The notes under the pieces were generated by a model. It was not told the DNA's origin. It searched no databases and saw nothing but the letters and a program-made list of their open reading frames with translations. DNA of 64,000 nucleotides from Terricaulis sp. (GTDB lineage: Bacteria; Pseudomonadota; Alphaproteobacteria; Caulobacterales; Aquidulcibacteraceae): assembly GCA_024707365.1 (NCBI GenBank), contig JANPZV010000004.1:186001-250000 (forward strand). The letters run 5' to 3'. Positions within the stretch are counted from its first letter, which is position 1. Each line of letters begins with the position of its first letter. The position numbers were made by a program, and so were the translations under genes. Of the stretch, positions 281-57,754 are shown piece by piece.

Positions 281-1156
281 ATGTCCAACCGCCCGCCCCG
301 CTGTTTCCAGGATGTGATCCTGACGCTCCAAAACTATTGGGCCGGAGAGGGCTGCGCGATTTTGCAGCCTTATGACGAGCAAGTGGGTGCGGGTACGCTG
401 CATCCGGCCACCACGCTGCGCGCGCTGGGCCCCAAGCCGTGGCGCGCAGCTTACGTGCAGCCCTCGCGCCGGCCCAAGGATGGCCGCTATGGCGAGAACC
501 CGAACCGGCTGCAGCACTATTACCAATTTCAGGTGATCCTGAAGCCGAACCCGGCGAACCTGCAGGCGCTTTACCTCAACTCGCTCGCCGCCATCGGCAT
601 TGATCCCTTGCTGCACGACATTCGCTTTGTGGAAGACGATTGGGAAAACCTGACTGTCGGCGCCTGGGGGCTTGGCTGGGAGGTGTGGTGCGATGGCATG
701 GAAGTCTCGCAATACACCTACTTTCAGCAAGTCGGCGGGCTCGATGTGCGACCTGTGTCGGGCGAGTTGACGTACGGGCTTGAGCGGCTGGCGATGTACG
801 TGTTCGGTGTTGATCGCGTGTACGATCTGCCGTTCAACGATCCGGACAGCCCGTATCCGCTGACCTACGGCGATGTGTTTCTCGAAAACGAGAAGCAGCA
901 ATCGCGTTTCAATTTTGAACTCAGCGATCCTGAGCAAAACCTGCGCTGGTTCGGCGATGCGGAAGCGACGGCCAAGCGCTTGCTGGACGCGGGCGCGGTG
1001 CTGCCGGCGTTTGATTACACGTTGAAGGCGTCGCACTTGTTCAACTTGCTCGACGCGCGCGGCGTGGTGAGCCCCACCGAACGCCAAAGCTTCATCGCCC
1101 GCGTGCGCGATCTGGCCAAAGGCTGCGCGAGCGCTTGGGCGGAGAGCCAGCAATGA
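281..1156 (+). CDS. glyQ: glycyl-tRNA synthetase alpha subunit
   Basis: [82 protein letters not shown]. Confidence 0.97.
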
Positions 1157-1749
1157 CGCCGCAAGATGAGGCGCGCGCACCAGCCCTCCCCCTCGATGGG
1201 GGAGGCGCCGCGAAGCGGCGGAGGGGGTGCGCCCGCTGGCGTCAAAGGCTTTGCGCTCAAGGGCGCCGCCGCCAAGGCGCGCTGGATCAAGTCGCGCGCA
1301 AAAAAACGCTGCGCACGCAAACAACGCCGCACGAGCGCGCGATGTGGCGTTTGTTGCATGAGGGCGAGCTGGCCGCGCTGAATTGGCGCAAGCAGGCGCC
1401 GTTTGGCGGATCTGTGCTCGACTTTGTGTCTCATCCGGCGCGTCTGGTTGTGGAAGTTGATGGCGCGCAGCATGCGCAGGCCGGCCAGGCGCTGCACGAT
1501 GCGCAGCGAACAGCCGCGCTTGAGCGCGAGGGGTATCGCGTATTGCGGTTTTGGAATGTCGATGTGGTGAAGGCGAAGACTGGCGTGTGGGACGCAATAT
1601 ATCAGGCGGCGATGCAAACGGCGGCGCATCGGCGCATGGAGCGGTGGCGTCGGGATGACGCCTTGCGCGCCAGGATCGTGAATGATGGCGGGTCTCACCC
1701 CCTCGGTCACGCTGCGCGTGACAGCTCCCCCATCGAGGGGGAGCAATAA
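1153..1749 (+). CDS. DUF559 / endonuclease domain-containing protein (PD-(D/E)XK-like), both termini encoded by flanking palindromic repeats
   Basis: [21 protein letters not shown]-like..[37 protein letters not shown]; sits between glyQ and glyS. Confidence 0.85.
1184..1746. mobile_element. Candidate DUF559 palindrome-bracketed mobile element (element 1)
   Basis: Left module CTCCCCCTCGATGGGGGAG + CGCCGCGAAGCGGCG + GAGGGGGTGCGCC; right module is the inverted counterpart (GGTCTCACCCCCTC + GTCACGCTGCGCGTGAC + CTCCCCCATCGAGGGGGAG). Confidence 0.65.
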
Positions 1750-4060
1750 TGCCCCAGCTCTCATCGAACTTTTCTCCGAAGAAATTCCGGCGCGCATGCA
1801 AAAGCGGGCGGAAGAGGATTTCGCGCGGCTGATGGGCGATAAGCTCAAGGGCGCGGGGCTTGAGGCCAAGGCGATTCAAACCTTTTCCTCGCCGCGCCGG
1901 CTTGGGCTTGTGATCGAAGATCTGCCGGCGAAAGCCGCCGACGTGAACGAGGAAAAAGAAAGGCCCGCGCGTGGGCGCGCCCGATCAGGCGGTGGCGGGC
2001 TTTCTGAAAAGCGCCGGGCTTGCGTCGATCGATCAGGCGCAAGTGGTCGAAGATAAAAAGGGCGCGTTCTACGTTGCGCGTATTGAGCGCGCGGGGCGGG
2101 CCACGGCGGCGATTGTGCAGGAGATCGTGCCTGAGATCATCCGCGCGTTTCCGTGGCCGAAATCGATGCGCTCGGGCGTGAGCGATCTGCAATGGGTGCG
2201 GCCGCTGCATAATGTGCTGTGCCTGTTCGATGGCGCGCCGGTGAAGATCGAGATCGAAGGCGTGGGCGCAAAGCCGGAAACGCAGGGGCATCGCTTCCAT
2301 GCGCCGGGCGCGATTAAGCCGAAGGATTTTGCGGACTACGCCGCCAAGCTGCGCGCCGCCAAAGTGCTGATCGATCGGGACGAGCGCAAAACCATTATCC
2401 TTGAAGCGGCGCAGAAGTTGTGCGCGGGCAAGGGGGCTTGAGCTGGTTGAGGATGCGGGGCTGCTGGAAGAGGTGGCGGGGCTGGTTGAATGGCCGGTGA
2501 CGCTGCTGGGCGATATGGACCCGGCCTTCCTTGATCTGCCGGGCGAGGTGATCCGCCTCTCCATGCGCACGCACCAGAAATATTTCGCGGTGCGCGATCC
2601 CAAAACGCAAAAGCTCGCGCCGCATTTCATCATTGTGGCGAATGTGGAGGCCAAGGATGGCGGCAAAGCCATCGCCGCCGGCAATGCGCGCGTGCTTTCT
2701 GCGCGGCTGAACGATGCGCGGTTTTTTCTGGGATGGCGATCGCAAGATGCCGCTGTTTACCGAGGAGCGGAAAGAAAAAGCTCAAGAAGATCGTCTTCCA
2801 CCAAAAGCTTGGCAGCGTGTGGGATAAGGTTGAGCGCGTGAAGGCGCTGGCGGTTGAGCTTTGCGGCGTCACGGGCGCGGATGCTGCGCTTGTGCATCGC
2901 GCGGCTGAACTGGCGAAGATGGATTTGGTCACGGAAACCGTGGGCGAGTTTCCTGAGCTGCAAGGCCAGATCGGGCGGCAGCTTTATCTCGCGGCCGGAG
3001 GGGGTGCGCCCTCCGGCGTTGAAGATGCAGCCTCACGCGGCGTTGCTGGAAAAGCCGGCGGGCCTCACCCCCTCAGTCACGCTGCGCGTGACAGCTCCCC
3101 CATCGAGGGGGAGCAAAGCATCGCCGCCGCCATCGAAGATCACTACCGCCCGCTCGGGCCCAATGACCGTGTGCCGAGCGATAAAGTCGCCGTGACGCTG
3201 GCGCTGGCGGATAAGCTGGATACGCTGGTGGGCTTCTGGGCTATTGATGAGAAGCCGACTGGGAGTAGCGATCCGTATGCGCTGCGGCGTGCGGCGCTTG
3301 GTGTTGTGCGTATTTTAACGTCGCAGAACGTTCGCACATCGTCTCAACGGTCGACGGCGCAAGGGGAGGTGTTTGCTGACCTTGTCGAAACGTTCTTGTG
3401 GCCGCAGTTCTGGCGAAGCGTGAACGATTACGCAGGCGATGATGCTGAACTCGTGGCGGCGCGCGCTGCGATGGGTGCGAAGCGCGTTGACGGCGCCCCT
3501 GGCTGGCAGCGCGGATGGACTGTCGCCGCTGACGTCCTCGCCTTCCTAGCCGATCGCCTCAAAGTCCAACTCCGCGATCAGGGCAAGCGCCACGATCTCG
3601 TCGACGCCGTGTTCGCCCTTGGCGATGACGATCTCGTCCGCATCGTGGCGCGCGTTGAAGCGCTCGATGCGTTCCTCAAAACCGAGGACGGGAAAATTTG
3701 CTCGCGGGCTATAAGCGCGCGGCCAATATTCTCGCGGCCGAGGAGAAGAAGGGCAAAGGGCTCAGCGAGGCTGATCTCGCCGCCGGCCTCGATGTGAGTA
3801 AACTCACAGAGGCGGCGGAAAAATCGCTGCACGCCGCGCTCGAAAGCGCATTGCCGACCGCGCGGTCGGCTGTGGAAGGCGAAGATTTCGCCGCGGCGAT
3901 GAAAGCCCTCAGCGGCTTGCGCGCGCCGGTGGACGCTTTCTTTGAAAAACTCCTCGTTAACGCCGAAGATCCCTTGCTGCGCCGCAATAGACTTTTGCTG
4001 CTCACCCGGTTACGTGAAGCGCTCTCTCAGGTCGCGGATTTTTCCAAGATCGAGGGGTAG
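1750..4060 (+). CDS. glyS: glycyl-tRNA synthetase beta subunit, broken by about six single-base frameshifts and carrying an in-frame palindromic insertion
   Basis: Segments [136 protein letters not shown] in shifting frames. Confidence 0.9.
2996..3116. mobile_element. MITE-like derivative of element 1 inserted in frame within glyS
   Basis: 3057-3116 matches 1687-1746 at 58/60 positions; left edge CGGAGGGGGTGCGCCC matches the inner end of the element 1 left module; translated as GGAPSG...[18 protein letters not shown] between conserved glyS blocks. Confidence 0.75.
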
Positions 4061-4069
4061 CGCTCTTAG

Positions 4070-4188
4070 CCCTCTCCCTTGCGGAGAGGGCGCCGCGAAG
4101 CGGCGGGTGAGGGGCGTTCCGACGCTCAGGCGCCTGCGTGTTTGAACGCCCCTCACCCCCTAACCCCCTCTCCGCGAGGGAGAGGGGG
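4070..4188. repeat. Compound palindromic repeat pair without internal gene (MITE-like, element 3)
   Basis: CCCTCTCCCTTGCGGAGAGGG-CGCCGCGAAGCGGCG-GGTGAGGGGCGTTC, 24-nt spacer, GAACGCCCCTCACCC...CCTCTCCGCGAGGGAGAGG in inverted orientation. Confidence 0.8.
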
Positions 4189-57294: not shown

Positions 57295-57754
57295 TTATCC
57301 TCCCCGCTCTGCGGGGAGGTCCCGAGCGTAGCGAGGGGGAGGGGCGAGTTGCGAAAAAGTTGGCGAATATCGCGTCACCGCAAAAGCCCGCGCGCTCCGC
57401 CACAATATGACCAAGGCCGAGGTGCTCCTTTGGGGAGCCTTGCGCAAACGCGCCGTCAACGGCGCGCGCTTTCGGCGCCAACGCCCAGTGGGTCCCTACA
57501 TCGCTGATTTTGCGTGCCCGGCAGCGCGTCTGGTGATTGAGGTGGACGGGTACACCCATTGGACGGAAGAACAGTTGGCGCATGATGCACGACGCACCAA
57601 ATATCTTGAAGCTGAAGGCTGGAAGGTCGTGCGGGTGAGCAATACCGACATCTACGAAAACATGGACGGCGTGTGGTCTTTCATCGCCGCCCAACTCCCC
57701 CCTCCGGCTGCTTCGCAGCCACCTCCCCCGCAAGCGGGGGAGGATAAAGGTCTG
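57295..57754. mobile_element. Candidate DUF559 palindrome-bracketed mobile element (element 4)
   Basis: Left TTATCCTCCCC-GCTCTG-CGGGGAGGT-CCCGAGCGTAGCGAGGGGGAGGGGCGAGTTG; reverse complement of right TTATCCTCCCCCGCTTGCGGGGGAGGTGGCTGCGAAGCAGCCGGAGGGGGGAGTTG. Confidence 0.65.

Follow-up and report, generated by a model that had tools for sequence, protein, structure and literature searches.

BoxC, PIT and TM are class II intrastrand triplex repeats (Holder et al. 2015, PMC4666352), of which a strict pattern found 3610 copies in 262 genomes. TM_ECO formed a triplex in vitro according to CD and NMR, with 18 imino signals and no quadruplex; in vivo, DMS footprinting showed no triplex, yet a polymerase stop was seen (PMC4666352). 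E. coli has five inverted BoxC pairs, each made of one type A and one type B copy, and no mobility gene was reported near the copies (Holder et al., PMC4666352). An Enterobacter asburiae paper prints the BoxC motif only in a primer, and it is Holder et al. (PMC4666352) that treats the repeat. These repeats occur in hundreds of bacterial genomes and are tied to genome instability, without a known function or mobility gene. DUF559 is a bacteria-wide protein family of unknown function.

The DNA analyzed here, referred to as the window, is a stretch of 64,000 nucleotides from Terricaulis sp. Between glyS and ppdK, positions 4070-4188 hold element 3, which by direct reading consists of two modules, a left one on the + strand and an inverted right one on the - strand. 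The left end starts with hairpin A, CCCTCTCCCTTGCGGAGAGGG (4070..4090, +; CCCTCTCC-CTTGC-GGAGAGGG), an inverted repeat that is also found in the predicted fold and would be the duplex part of the proposed triplex. Hairpin B, CGCCGCGAAGCGGCG (4091..4105, +; CGCCGC-GAA-GCGGCG), follows in the second triplex loop, and after it a third segment, GGTGAGGGGCGTTC (4106-4119, +); related modules carry variable B hairpins. The purine tail GGGTGAGGGG (4105..4114, +), which the preliminary description overlooked, mirrors the purine arm GGAGAGGG except that T replaces A, and is the proposed third strand, on the basis of its sequence and of the mirror tests described below. A subterminal motif, GGCGTTC (4113..4119, +), was found by comparison to be common to the N/T-type DUF559 elements of congeners. 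The 24-nt spacer (4120..4143) takes the place that a nuclease gene has in congeners, and it includes ACGCTCAGGCGCC, which is also present in a truncated DUF559 element at the same junction of one congener (L124). The inverted right module begins with GAACGCCCCTCACCC (4144-4158) and contains, on the - strand, a purine tail, GGGGGTGAGGGG (4149..4160), as its proposed third strand, a second loop TTA (4161..4163), the loop found in type A copies of BoxC in E. coli (PMC4666352), and hairpin A, CCCCCTCTCC-CTCGC-GGAGAGGGGG (4164..4188), again evident as an inverted repeat and in the fold. The two ends are therefore of different types, the left with hairpin B in the second loop and the right with TTA. 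The preliminary description had placed the left and inverted right modules 24 nt apart, called the inner 15-bp arms a perfect inverted repeat, and equated the middle hairpin with that of the left module of element 1 (1206-1220); all of this was borne out by the sequence.

Element 3 is a doublet of inverted palindromic repeats that folds as one hairpin, as REPINs do. Its outer 21-nt arms were 95% complementary, and the predicted fold reached -103 kcal/mol as RNA (z -9.8; as DNA, z -8.0), with none of 200 shuffles folding as well. The literal TM_ECO pattern, CCCTCNCCCN3-6GGGNGAGGGN3GGGNGAGGG, had no match at 4070-4188 even with the second-loop gap relaxed to 2-4 nt; the inner stem has 8 triplets in that register, not 9. 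No Rfam family matched at its gathering score within the window. So stable a fold in the intergenic site after glyS could also belong to an ordinary terminator or an mRNA-stabilizing hairpin at the end of an operon, with no mobility. There was, however, no T run behind either hairpin, as an intrinsic terminator requires; PIT elements had neither promoter nor terminator activity (PMC4666352); related units lie in frame within glyS; and the sites are empty in close relatives. An immobile terminator would also leave the two-ended pairing and the DUF559 association described below unexplained, and it is the least probable of the explanations considered. The preliminary description had named as its refuting outcome that only ordinary terminators, with no paired inverted copies, would be found; a genome-wide search instead returned 21 convergent pairs.

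All module types shared one plan: behind a pyrimidine-purine hairpin comes a G-rich tail, the mirror image of the purine arm, as in a class II intrastrand triplex. From arm to tail, G corresponded to G, A to A or T, and C to T. T is the tolerated choice opposite a C-G inversion in triplexes. Element 3 obeyed this code at 8 of 8 left-end and 10 of 10 right-end positions, its pyrimidine arm, purine arm and antiparallel third strand following in the order and code of the R motif, for which the standard triplets are G.GC, A.AT and T.AT (PMC4666352; PMC9483843). Near DUF559 genes, the arm and tail combinations included GGGGGAAGG with GGAAGGGGG (L014) or with GGATGGGGG (L033, L074), GGGAGAAGG with GGATGAGGG (L026, L037, L056), GGGGGAGGA with AGGTGGGGG (L067), GGGAGGGAG with GAGGGAGGG (L069), and GGGCGAGG with GGAGTGGG (L179, L183, L188); in the genus of the window, GGGGCGGGGG was combined with GGGGGTGGGG. 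Modules of AT-richer genomes (L060, L062, L081, L141 and similar) had the form AAAGGGGGA ... AGGGGGATTT, with T in place of the inner A run, which is within the triplex code.

The mirror relation was tested on the nearest inward hairpins at 80 DUF559 loci, using the non-G positions over 9 nt and 500 permutations of the arms among loci. Tails fitted their own arm perfectly in 63 of 102 cases (permuted mean 16.9, maximum 28). When the full code was applied to 219 deduplicated modules, 119 were perfect (permuted mean 28.5, maximum 42). Many arms are near mirror-symmetric, and a direct-repeat model also fitted 60 of the 219 perfectly, as might be the case if the mirror relation were an accident of G-rich sequence; the G tracts could also form a quadruplex instead of a triplex. 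Among the asymmetric arms of the 80 loci, however, the mirror was favored over the direct repeat 41 to 13, and GGAT or GGAA tails accompanied 20 of 21 arms ending in AAGG as against 21 of 157 other arms. These observations and the pairing of arm C with tail T argue against an accident, the 18 imino signals of TM_ECO argue against a quadruplex (PMC4666352), and we consider either alternative improbable. The AAGG arm state changed 9-10 times on the DUF559 tree, which has few supported branches, and an independent-pair test went in the expected direction, with only 2 pairs on supported branches. Swapping left and right within a locus gave a marginal result (21 vs 11, p 0.055), since many arms are mirror-symmetric or were lengthened by one base by the hairpin finder.

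At least three unrelated contexts showed the C-to-T rule, and this recurrence weighs more than the raw counts. In the genome of the window (G000), outer-arm C went with tail T in 35 of 36 modules and G with G in 33 of 37; in four congeners the corresponding counts were 49/49 for C/T, 43/46 for G/G and 1/1 for A/A. These counts are not independent events, because the C-end and the G-end are two lines of descent.

Modules were found by exact patterns with reversed-pattern controls and by a custom module finder. A strict module was defined as a hairpin with a tail matching the triplex code at 8/8 positions and facing the gene, and pseudo-gene positions in the same loci served as the control. Inward triplex modules were present at 123 of 140 DUF559 loci and at 8 of 625 control positions: 69/80 vs 3/462 in a scan of GTDB genomes, 28/29 vs 1/79 in a phylum sample, and 26/31 vs 4/84 in the genus and order. 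An outward-facing control gave 60/140 and is not a clean null, as it is triggered by neighboring pairs and symmetric arms, so comparisons should rest on the pseudo-gene control. The 80 loci span Proteobacteria, Chloroflexi, Nitrospinota, Marinimicrobia and others, and strong inverted similarity between the two flanks was seen at about 50 of 78 loci. G000 has four DUF559 genes, each flanked by inverted modules; exact patterns found 83 C-type and 4 strict BoxC-type modules in this genome, and the reversed controls found 0. In the genus, 25 genomes together contained 114 copies of the strict BoxC pattern and none of its reversed control. Twenty-five of the 114 copies were no more than 500 bp from a DUF559 gene, where 0.21 were expected, and 20 more were in convergent pairs. 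BoxC copy number correlated with DUF559 number in the 25 genomes (rho 0.63, p 0.0008, uncorrected for kinship).

REPINs likewise consist of two short repeats in inverted orientation around a short spacer (PMC3116915), and HUH (Y1) transposases are present in G000 and in many congeners, so a REPIN/RAYT-like transposase acting in trans might have spread the modules. In the same set of genus and order genomes that gave 26 of 31 for DUF559, however, only 1 of 20 Y1 loci had modules nearby, and that one was a fragment beside a module pair. No GTAG/CGTC-type tag was noticed incidentally. With no cognate Y1 linkage, an HUH transposase was not supported as the mover and is very improbable.

The modules commonly form units with two different ends. 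Of the 83 C-type modules of G000, 73 were parsed, and 42 of these formed 21 convergent pairs, every one of which combined a C-end with a G-end (21/21, shuffle p < 1e-5); the spacer was 31-32 nt in 11 of the 21. Most of the unpaired modules that were inspected had a degenerate partner beside them. In four congeners, 22 of 25 pairs combined a C-end with a G-end. The outer flanks of four G000 pairs (L221, L226, L229, L230) were nearly identical, cactgccccgccggcatg...tttctcgctcgat, as though the pair were part of a longer repeat. Partnerless G-ends at L219 and L240 were followed by a different palindromic repeat, tatggagcgcgggcgtcccgcccgcatcg, possibly a second repeat family. In G000, a BoxC pair (C1:246703-246849) was read between a gcvT-like gene and gcvH, and an E. 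coli pair (L203) lies at ygfF-gcvP; the glycine-cleavage neighbors in both genomes may be a coincidence.

Three further elements were identified in the window. Element 1 (1185-1745) bears a DUF559 gene, an ORF at 1135..1749 on the + strand (PF04480, E 4.9e-29; domain at about 1294-1608). Its left end, a G-end of type C (1185..1229, +), consists of CCTCCCCC-TCGAT-GGGGGAGG, a hairpin B and the tail GGAGGGGG, and its right C-end (1694..1744, -) of GCTCCCCC-TCGAT-GGGGGAGC, a hairpin B and the tail CGAGGGGG, both found by sequence and pattern. Element 2 (2995..3114), delimited by repeats, ORFs and comparison with congeners, has no nuclease gene; its left end is reduced to GGAGGGGGTGCGCCC, and its intact right C-end was 97% identical to that of element 1 over 60 nt. 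It lies in frame within the glyS reading frame 2733-3797. Element 4 (57300..57745, +) has a DUF559 gene (profile match 57374-57694) between inverted modules. With elements 1, 2 and 3 all between 1185 and 4188, element 3 is indeed the third of its kind within 3 kb, as had been stated. Its assignment to the same superfamily as its neighbors stands in that solo, paired and DUF559-containing forms all exist, but elements 1 and 2 are of a different end type, with arms of the type CTCCCCC/GGGGGAG, unlike CCCTCTCC/GGAGAGGG of element 3. The type-T module had been described before, as the triplex-forming BoxC/PIT/TM repeat (PMC4666352). From 1682 to 4060, glyS was split into several overlapping frames, with apparent indels often at short homopolymers. 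Congeners had a single intact glyS frame of about 700-840 aa, and the fragmentation in this assembly is probably an assembly error.

Nineteen congeneric glyQ-glyS-ppdK loci were compared. At the glyS-ppdK junction, six had a DUF559 gene between inverted modules (L122, L127, L128, L130, L133, L139), one had the truncated DUF559 element mentioned above (L124), three had paired modules without the nuclease (L121, L123, L131), and five had no such element (L125, L129, L132, L135, L138). The right end of element 3 (4144-4188) matched L124 in 41 of 43 columns and L130 in 49 of 54; the nearest relative of the left end was L139. Since congeners hold DUF559 elements at this very junction, a nuclease-less derivative is the natural reading of element 3, and by sequence comparison it would most simply be one of these elements with its interior deleted. 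An exchange with a type C module may have supplied its left hairpin B.

At glyQ-glyS, six congeners had a 5-nt gap, mostly AGCTA (L121, L122, L125, L132, L133, L134), and DUF559 elements were found in G000, L124, L127, L128, L130 and L131. Four others (L126, L136, L138, L139) had unrelated genes there, encoding a putative secreted protein (about 150 aa), which shows that the junction takes several kinds of insertion. The in-frame site within glyS held units of differing types in G000 and seven congeners and was empty in seven others; L123 had a lone hairpin there, and the locus of L134 is truncated. Units with differing end types in L122, L124, L127, L129, L133, L139 and the window (2995-3114) were at the same glyS codon position and in frame. 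Their translations were proline/glycine-rich inserts, e.g. PSPLAGEG...PNPAPPGGGE, which resemble Rickettsia palindromic elements.

The state of the three sites changed between occupied and empty 5, 4 and 6 times on a weakly resolved tree, counts that do not distinguish gain from loss, and well-supported tree neighbors differed in occupancy (L121 from L125, and L127 from L130 and L138). The preliminary description had called glyQ-glyS-ppdK a hotspot: the three sites do hold differing element types across the genus, but repeated insertion is not separable from one old insertion with turnover of the ends. No target-site duplication was visible at glyQ-glyS, at glyS-ppdK, which offered no very close empty and filled pair for element 3, or at hrpB-mrcB of E. 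coli. No excision product was found either, and filled and empty junctions differed by more than a clean insertion.

E. coli K-12 has both the gene and the repeat: ycjD, which encodes a DUF559 protein, and 23 BoxC copies. BoxC number 9 of Holder's Table 1 lies on the 3' side of ycjD, and in a second E. coli strain an intact tail faces the gene. Three of the pairs, at fepB-entC, ygfF-gcvP and alx-sstT, share a conserved inner spacer, about TAATRTTCGCACCRGTGCYGGCCTGTTC, and this common spacer indicates one mini-element. The hrpB-mrcB pair is in MG1655; other E. coli strains lack it and have 12 nt instead, and in one strain 64 nt between the two hairpins are deleted. Loss of 76 nt at alx-sstT left a single hairpin. 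The variation in E. coli thus shows presence and absence and a route of decay, not clean insertion with target duplication. The fabI-ycjD-sapF region was considered as an empty site and rejected: in strains where the segment is missing, an efflux operon separates fabI from the remainder.

The AlphaFold model of the DUF559 protein (pLDDT 90) had as its nearest solved structures 3hrl (NGO0050), 3r3p (I-Bth0305I) and 1cw0 (Vsr), and hmmsearch agreed; for I-Bth0305I the Foldseek E was 5e-5 (TMt 0.80) and the hmmsearch E 0.0044. Invariant residues including E34, D63, E74, D76 and H80 (numbering of the first sequence) are consistent with a PD-(D/E)XK active site. The DUF559 protein VsrA of C. crescentus (CCNA_02930) provokes a DNA damage response when a methyltransferase is mutated (PMC12907096), which fits an active nuclease. 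PADLOC gave weak DpdF matches only, and this assignment was rejected.

Element 3 carries no nuclease gene itself, and it is placed among the derivatives of DUF559 elements because DUF559 is found at the orthologous junctions. It is short and gene-less, with inverted ends common to its gene-bearing relatives, which describes a MITE, and the MITE-like form that the preliminary description had suggested gained support from the congeners. We therefore read element 3 as a non-autonomous, MITE-like unit of a family of DUF559-carrying mobile elements with two inverted, non-identical ends of the BoxC/PIT type, derived by loss of the nuclease gene at glyS-ppdK, with a probability of roughly 0.68.

We infer that DUF559 mobilizes the module ends. 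In the proposed mechanism, autonomous members would have the DUF559 gene between two inverted, non-identical ends, which would fold while single-stranded, for example on the lagging strand, with the purine tail lying in the major groove of the hairpin as an antiparallel triplex. The nuclease, made in cis or in trans, would recognize or cut the folded ends, and repair or copying would then place the unit elsewhere. The triplex in the cell, the cleavage by DUF559 and the route of transposition are all suppositions of this model. A broader and more tentative proposal, to which we give somewhat less than even odds, is that BoxC/PIT repeats, which have been known since the 1990s but have lacked a mobility gene, form the ends of widespread elements moved by a Vsr-fold nuclease that recognizes or cuts a DNA triplex-hairpin. 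These would be a second, non-HUH counterpart of REPIN/RAYT, with a third strand kept matched to its duplex by selection.

Counting against these proposals are the results given above on target-site duplication, excision products and junctions, on the DMS footprint, on the literal TM_ECO pattern and on the swap of left and right ends. In addition, the two ends of an element often differ in their arms, and some DUF559 genes lie between two complete pairs (L007, G022:C4), observations that also fit DUF559 invading existing repeats. The main rival explanation accordingly makes DUF559 a homing-type passenger: module pairs would spread alone or through repair by the host, and would be tolerated landing sites that the nuclease gene invades without moving them. 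In addition to the unlike arms and the nested arrangements, it would account for modules far outnumbering nuclease genes and for a homing endonuclease, I-Bth0305I, being among the closest solved relatives. Related nucleases, however, keep related end types and subterminal motifs at different sites, and the tails face the gene at short distance in most loci, and on balance we consider a passenger the less likely explanation. Both a mobilizing and a passenger nuclease predict a direct interaction of DUF559 with the modules.

Neither the triplex modules nor DUF559 are new. Searches of open-access full texts found no mention of a linkage between them, of a unit with two different ends, of a hairpin B in loop 2, of the C-to-T rule or of paired BoxC copies deriving from nuclease-bearing elements, and nothing relevant on DUF559 with MITEs or palindromic repeats, or with ycjD. 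The link provides a testable role for each partner: DUF559 would supply the nuclease of a mobile element and BoxC its ends. The two-ended unit accounts for E. coli BoxC pairs always combining type A with type B. The covariation of arm and tail would be an in vivo sign of selection keeping a DNA triplex, which has hitherto been hard to show, and E. coli K-12 is a ready test bed.

Among the known nucleases, VsrA of C. crescentus has, like the proteins of the window, a DUF559 domain and is a Vsr-like nuclease, but it was studied as a mismatch-repair-type nuclease tied to cytosine methylation, with flanking repeats unmentioned in the portion of the report consulted (PMC12907096). I-Bth0305I (3r3p) is similar to DUF559 in fold and sequence; it is annotated as a mobile-intron protein, whereas the DUF559 gene here lies between triplex-capable inverted ends. 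Classical MITEs are likewise short and internally deleted and keep the ends of a gene-bearing relative, but no DDE transposase and no target-site duplication were detected here. REPIN/RAYT (Bertels and Rainey 2011, PMC3116915) also has inverted pairs of short palindromic repeats as its mobile unit, together with a nuclease gene that such repeats flank. That gene encodes an HUH tyrosine transposase, whereas here it encodes a Vsr-fold PD-(D/E)XK nuclease (DUF559) with no Y1 linkage, and each repeat here is a hairpin with a mirror tail.

BoxC/PIT/TM_ECO repeats have the same order as element 3, namely pyrimidine arm, loop, purine arm, second loop and purine third strand, and they share with it the arms CCCTCTCC/GGAGAGGG, the tail GGTGAGGG and the second loop TTA. 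Both they and the paired modules described here occur as inverted pairs of two different module types. Element 3 differs in having a 14-15 nt hairpin in the second loop of its left module and an inner stem one triplet shorter than the literal pattern, and its relatives use other arms, with T opposite C.
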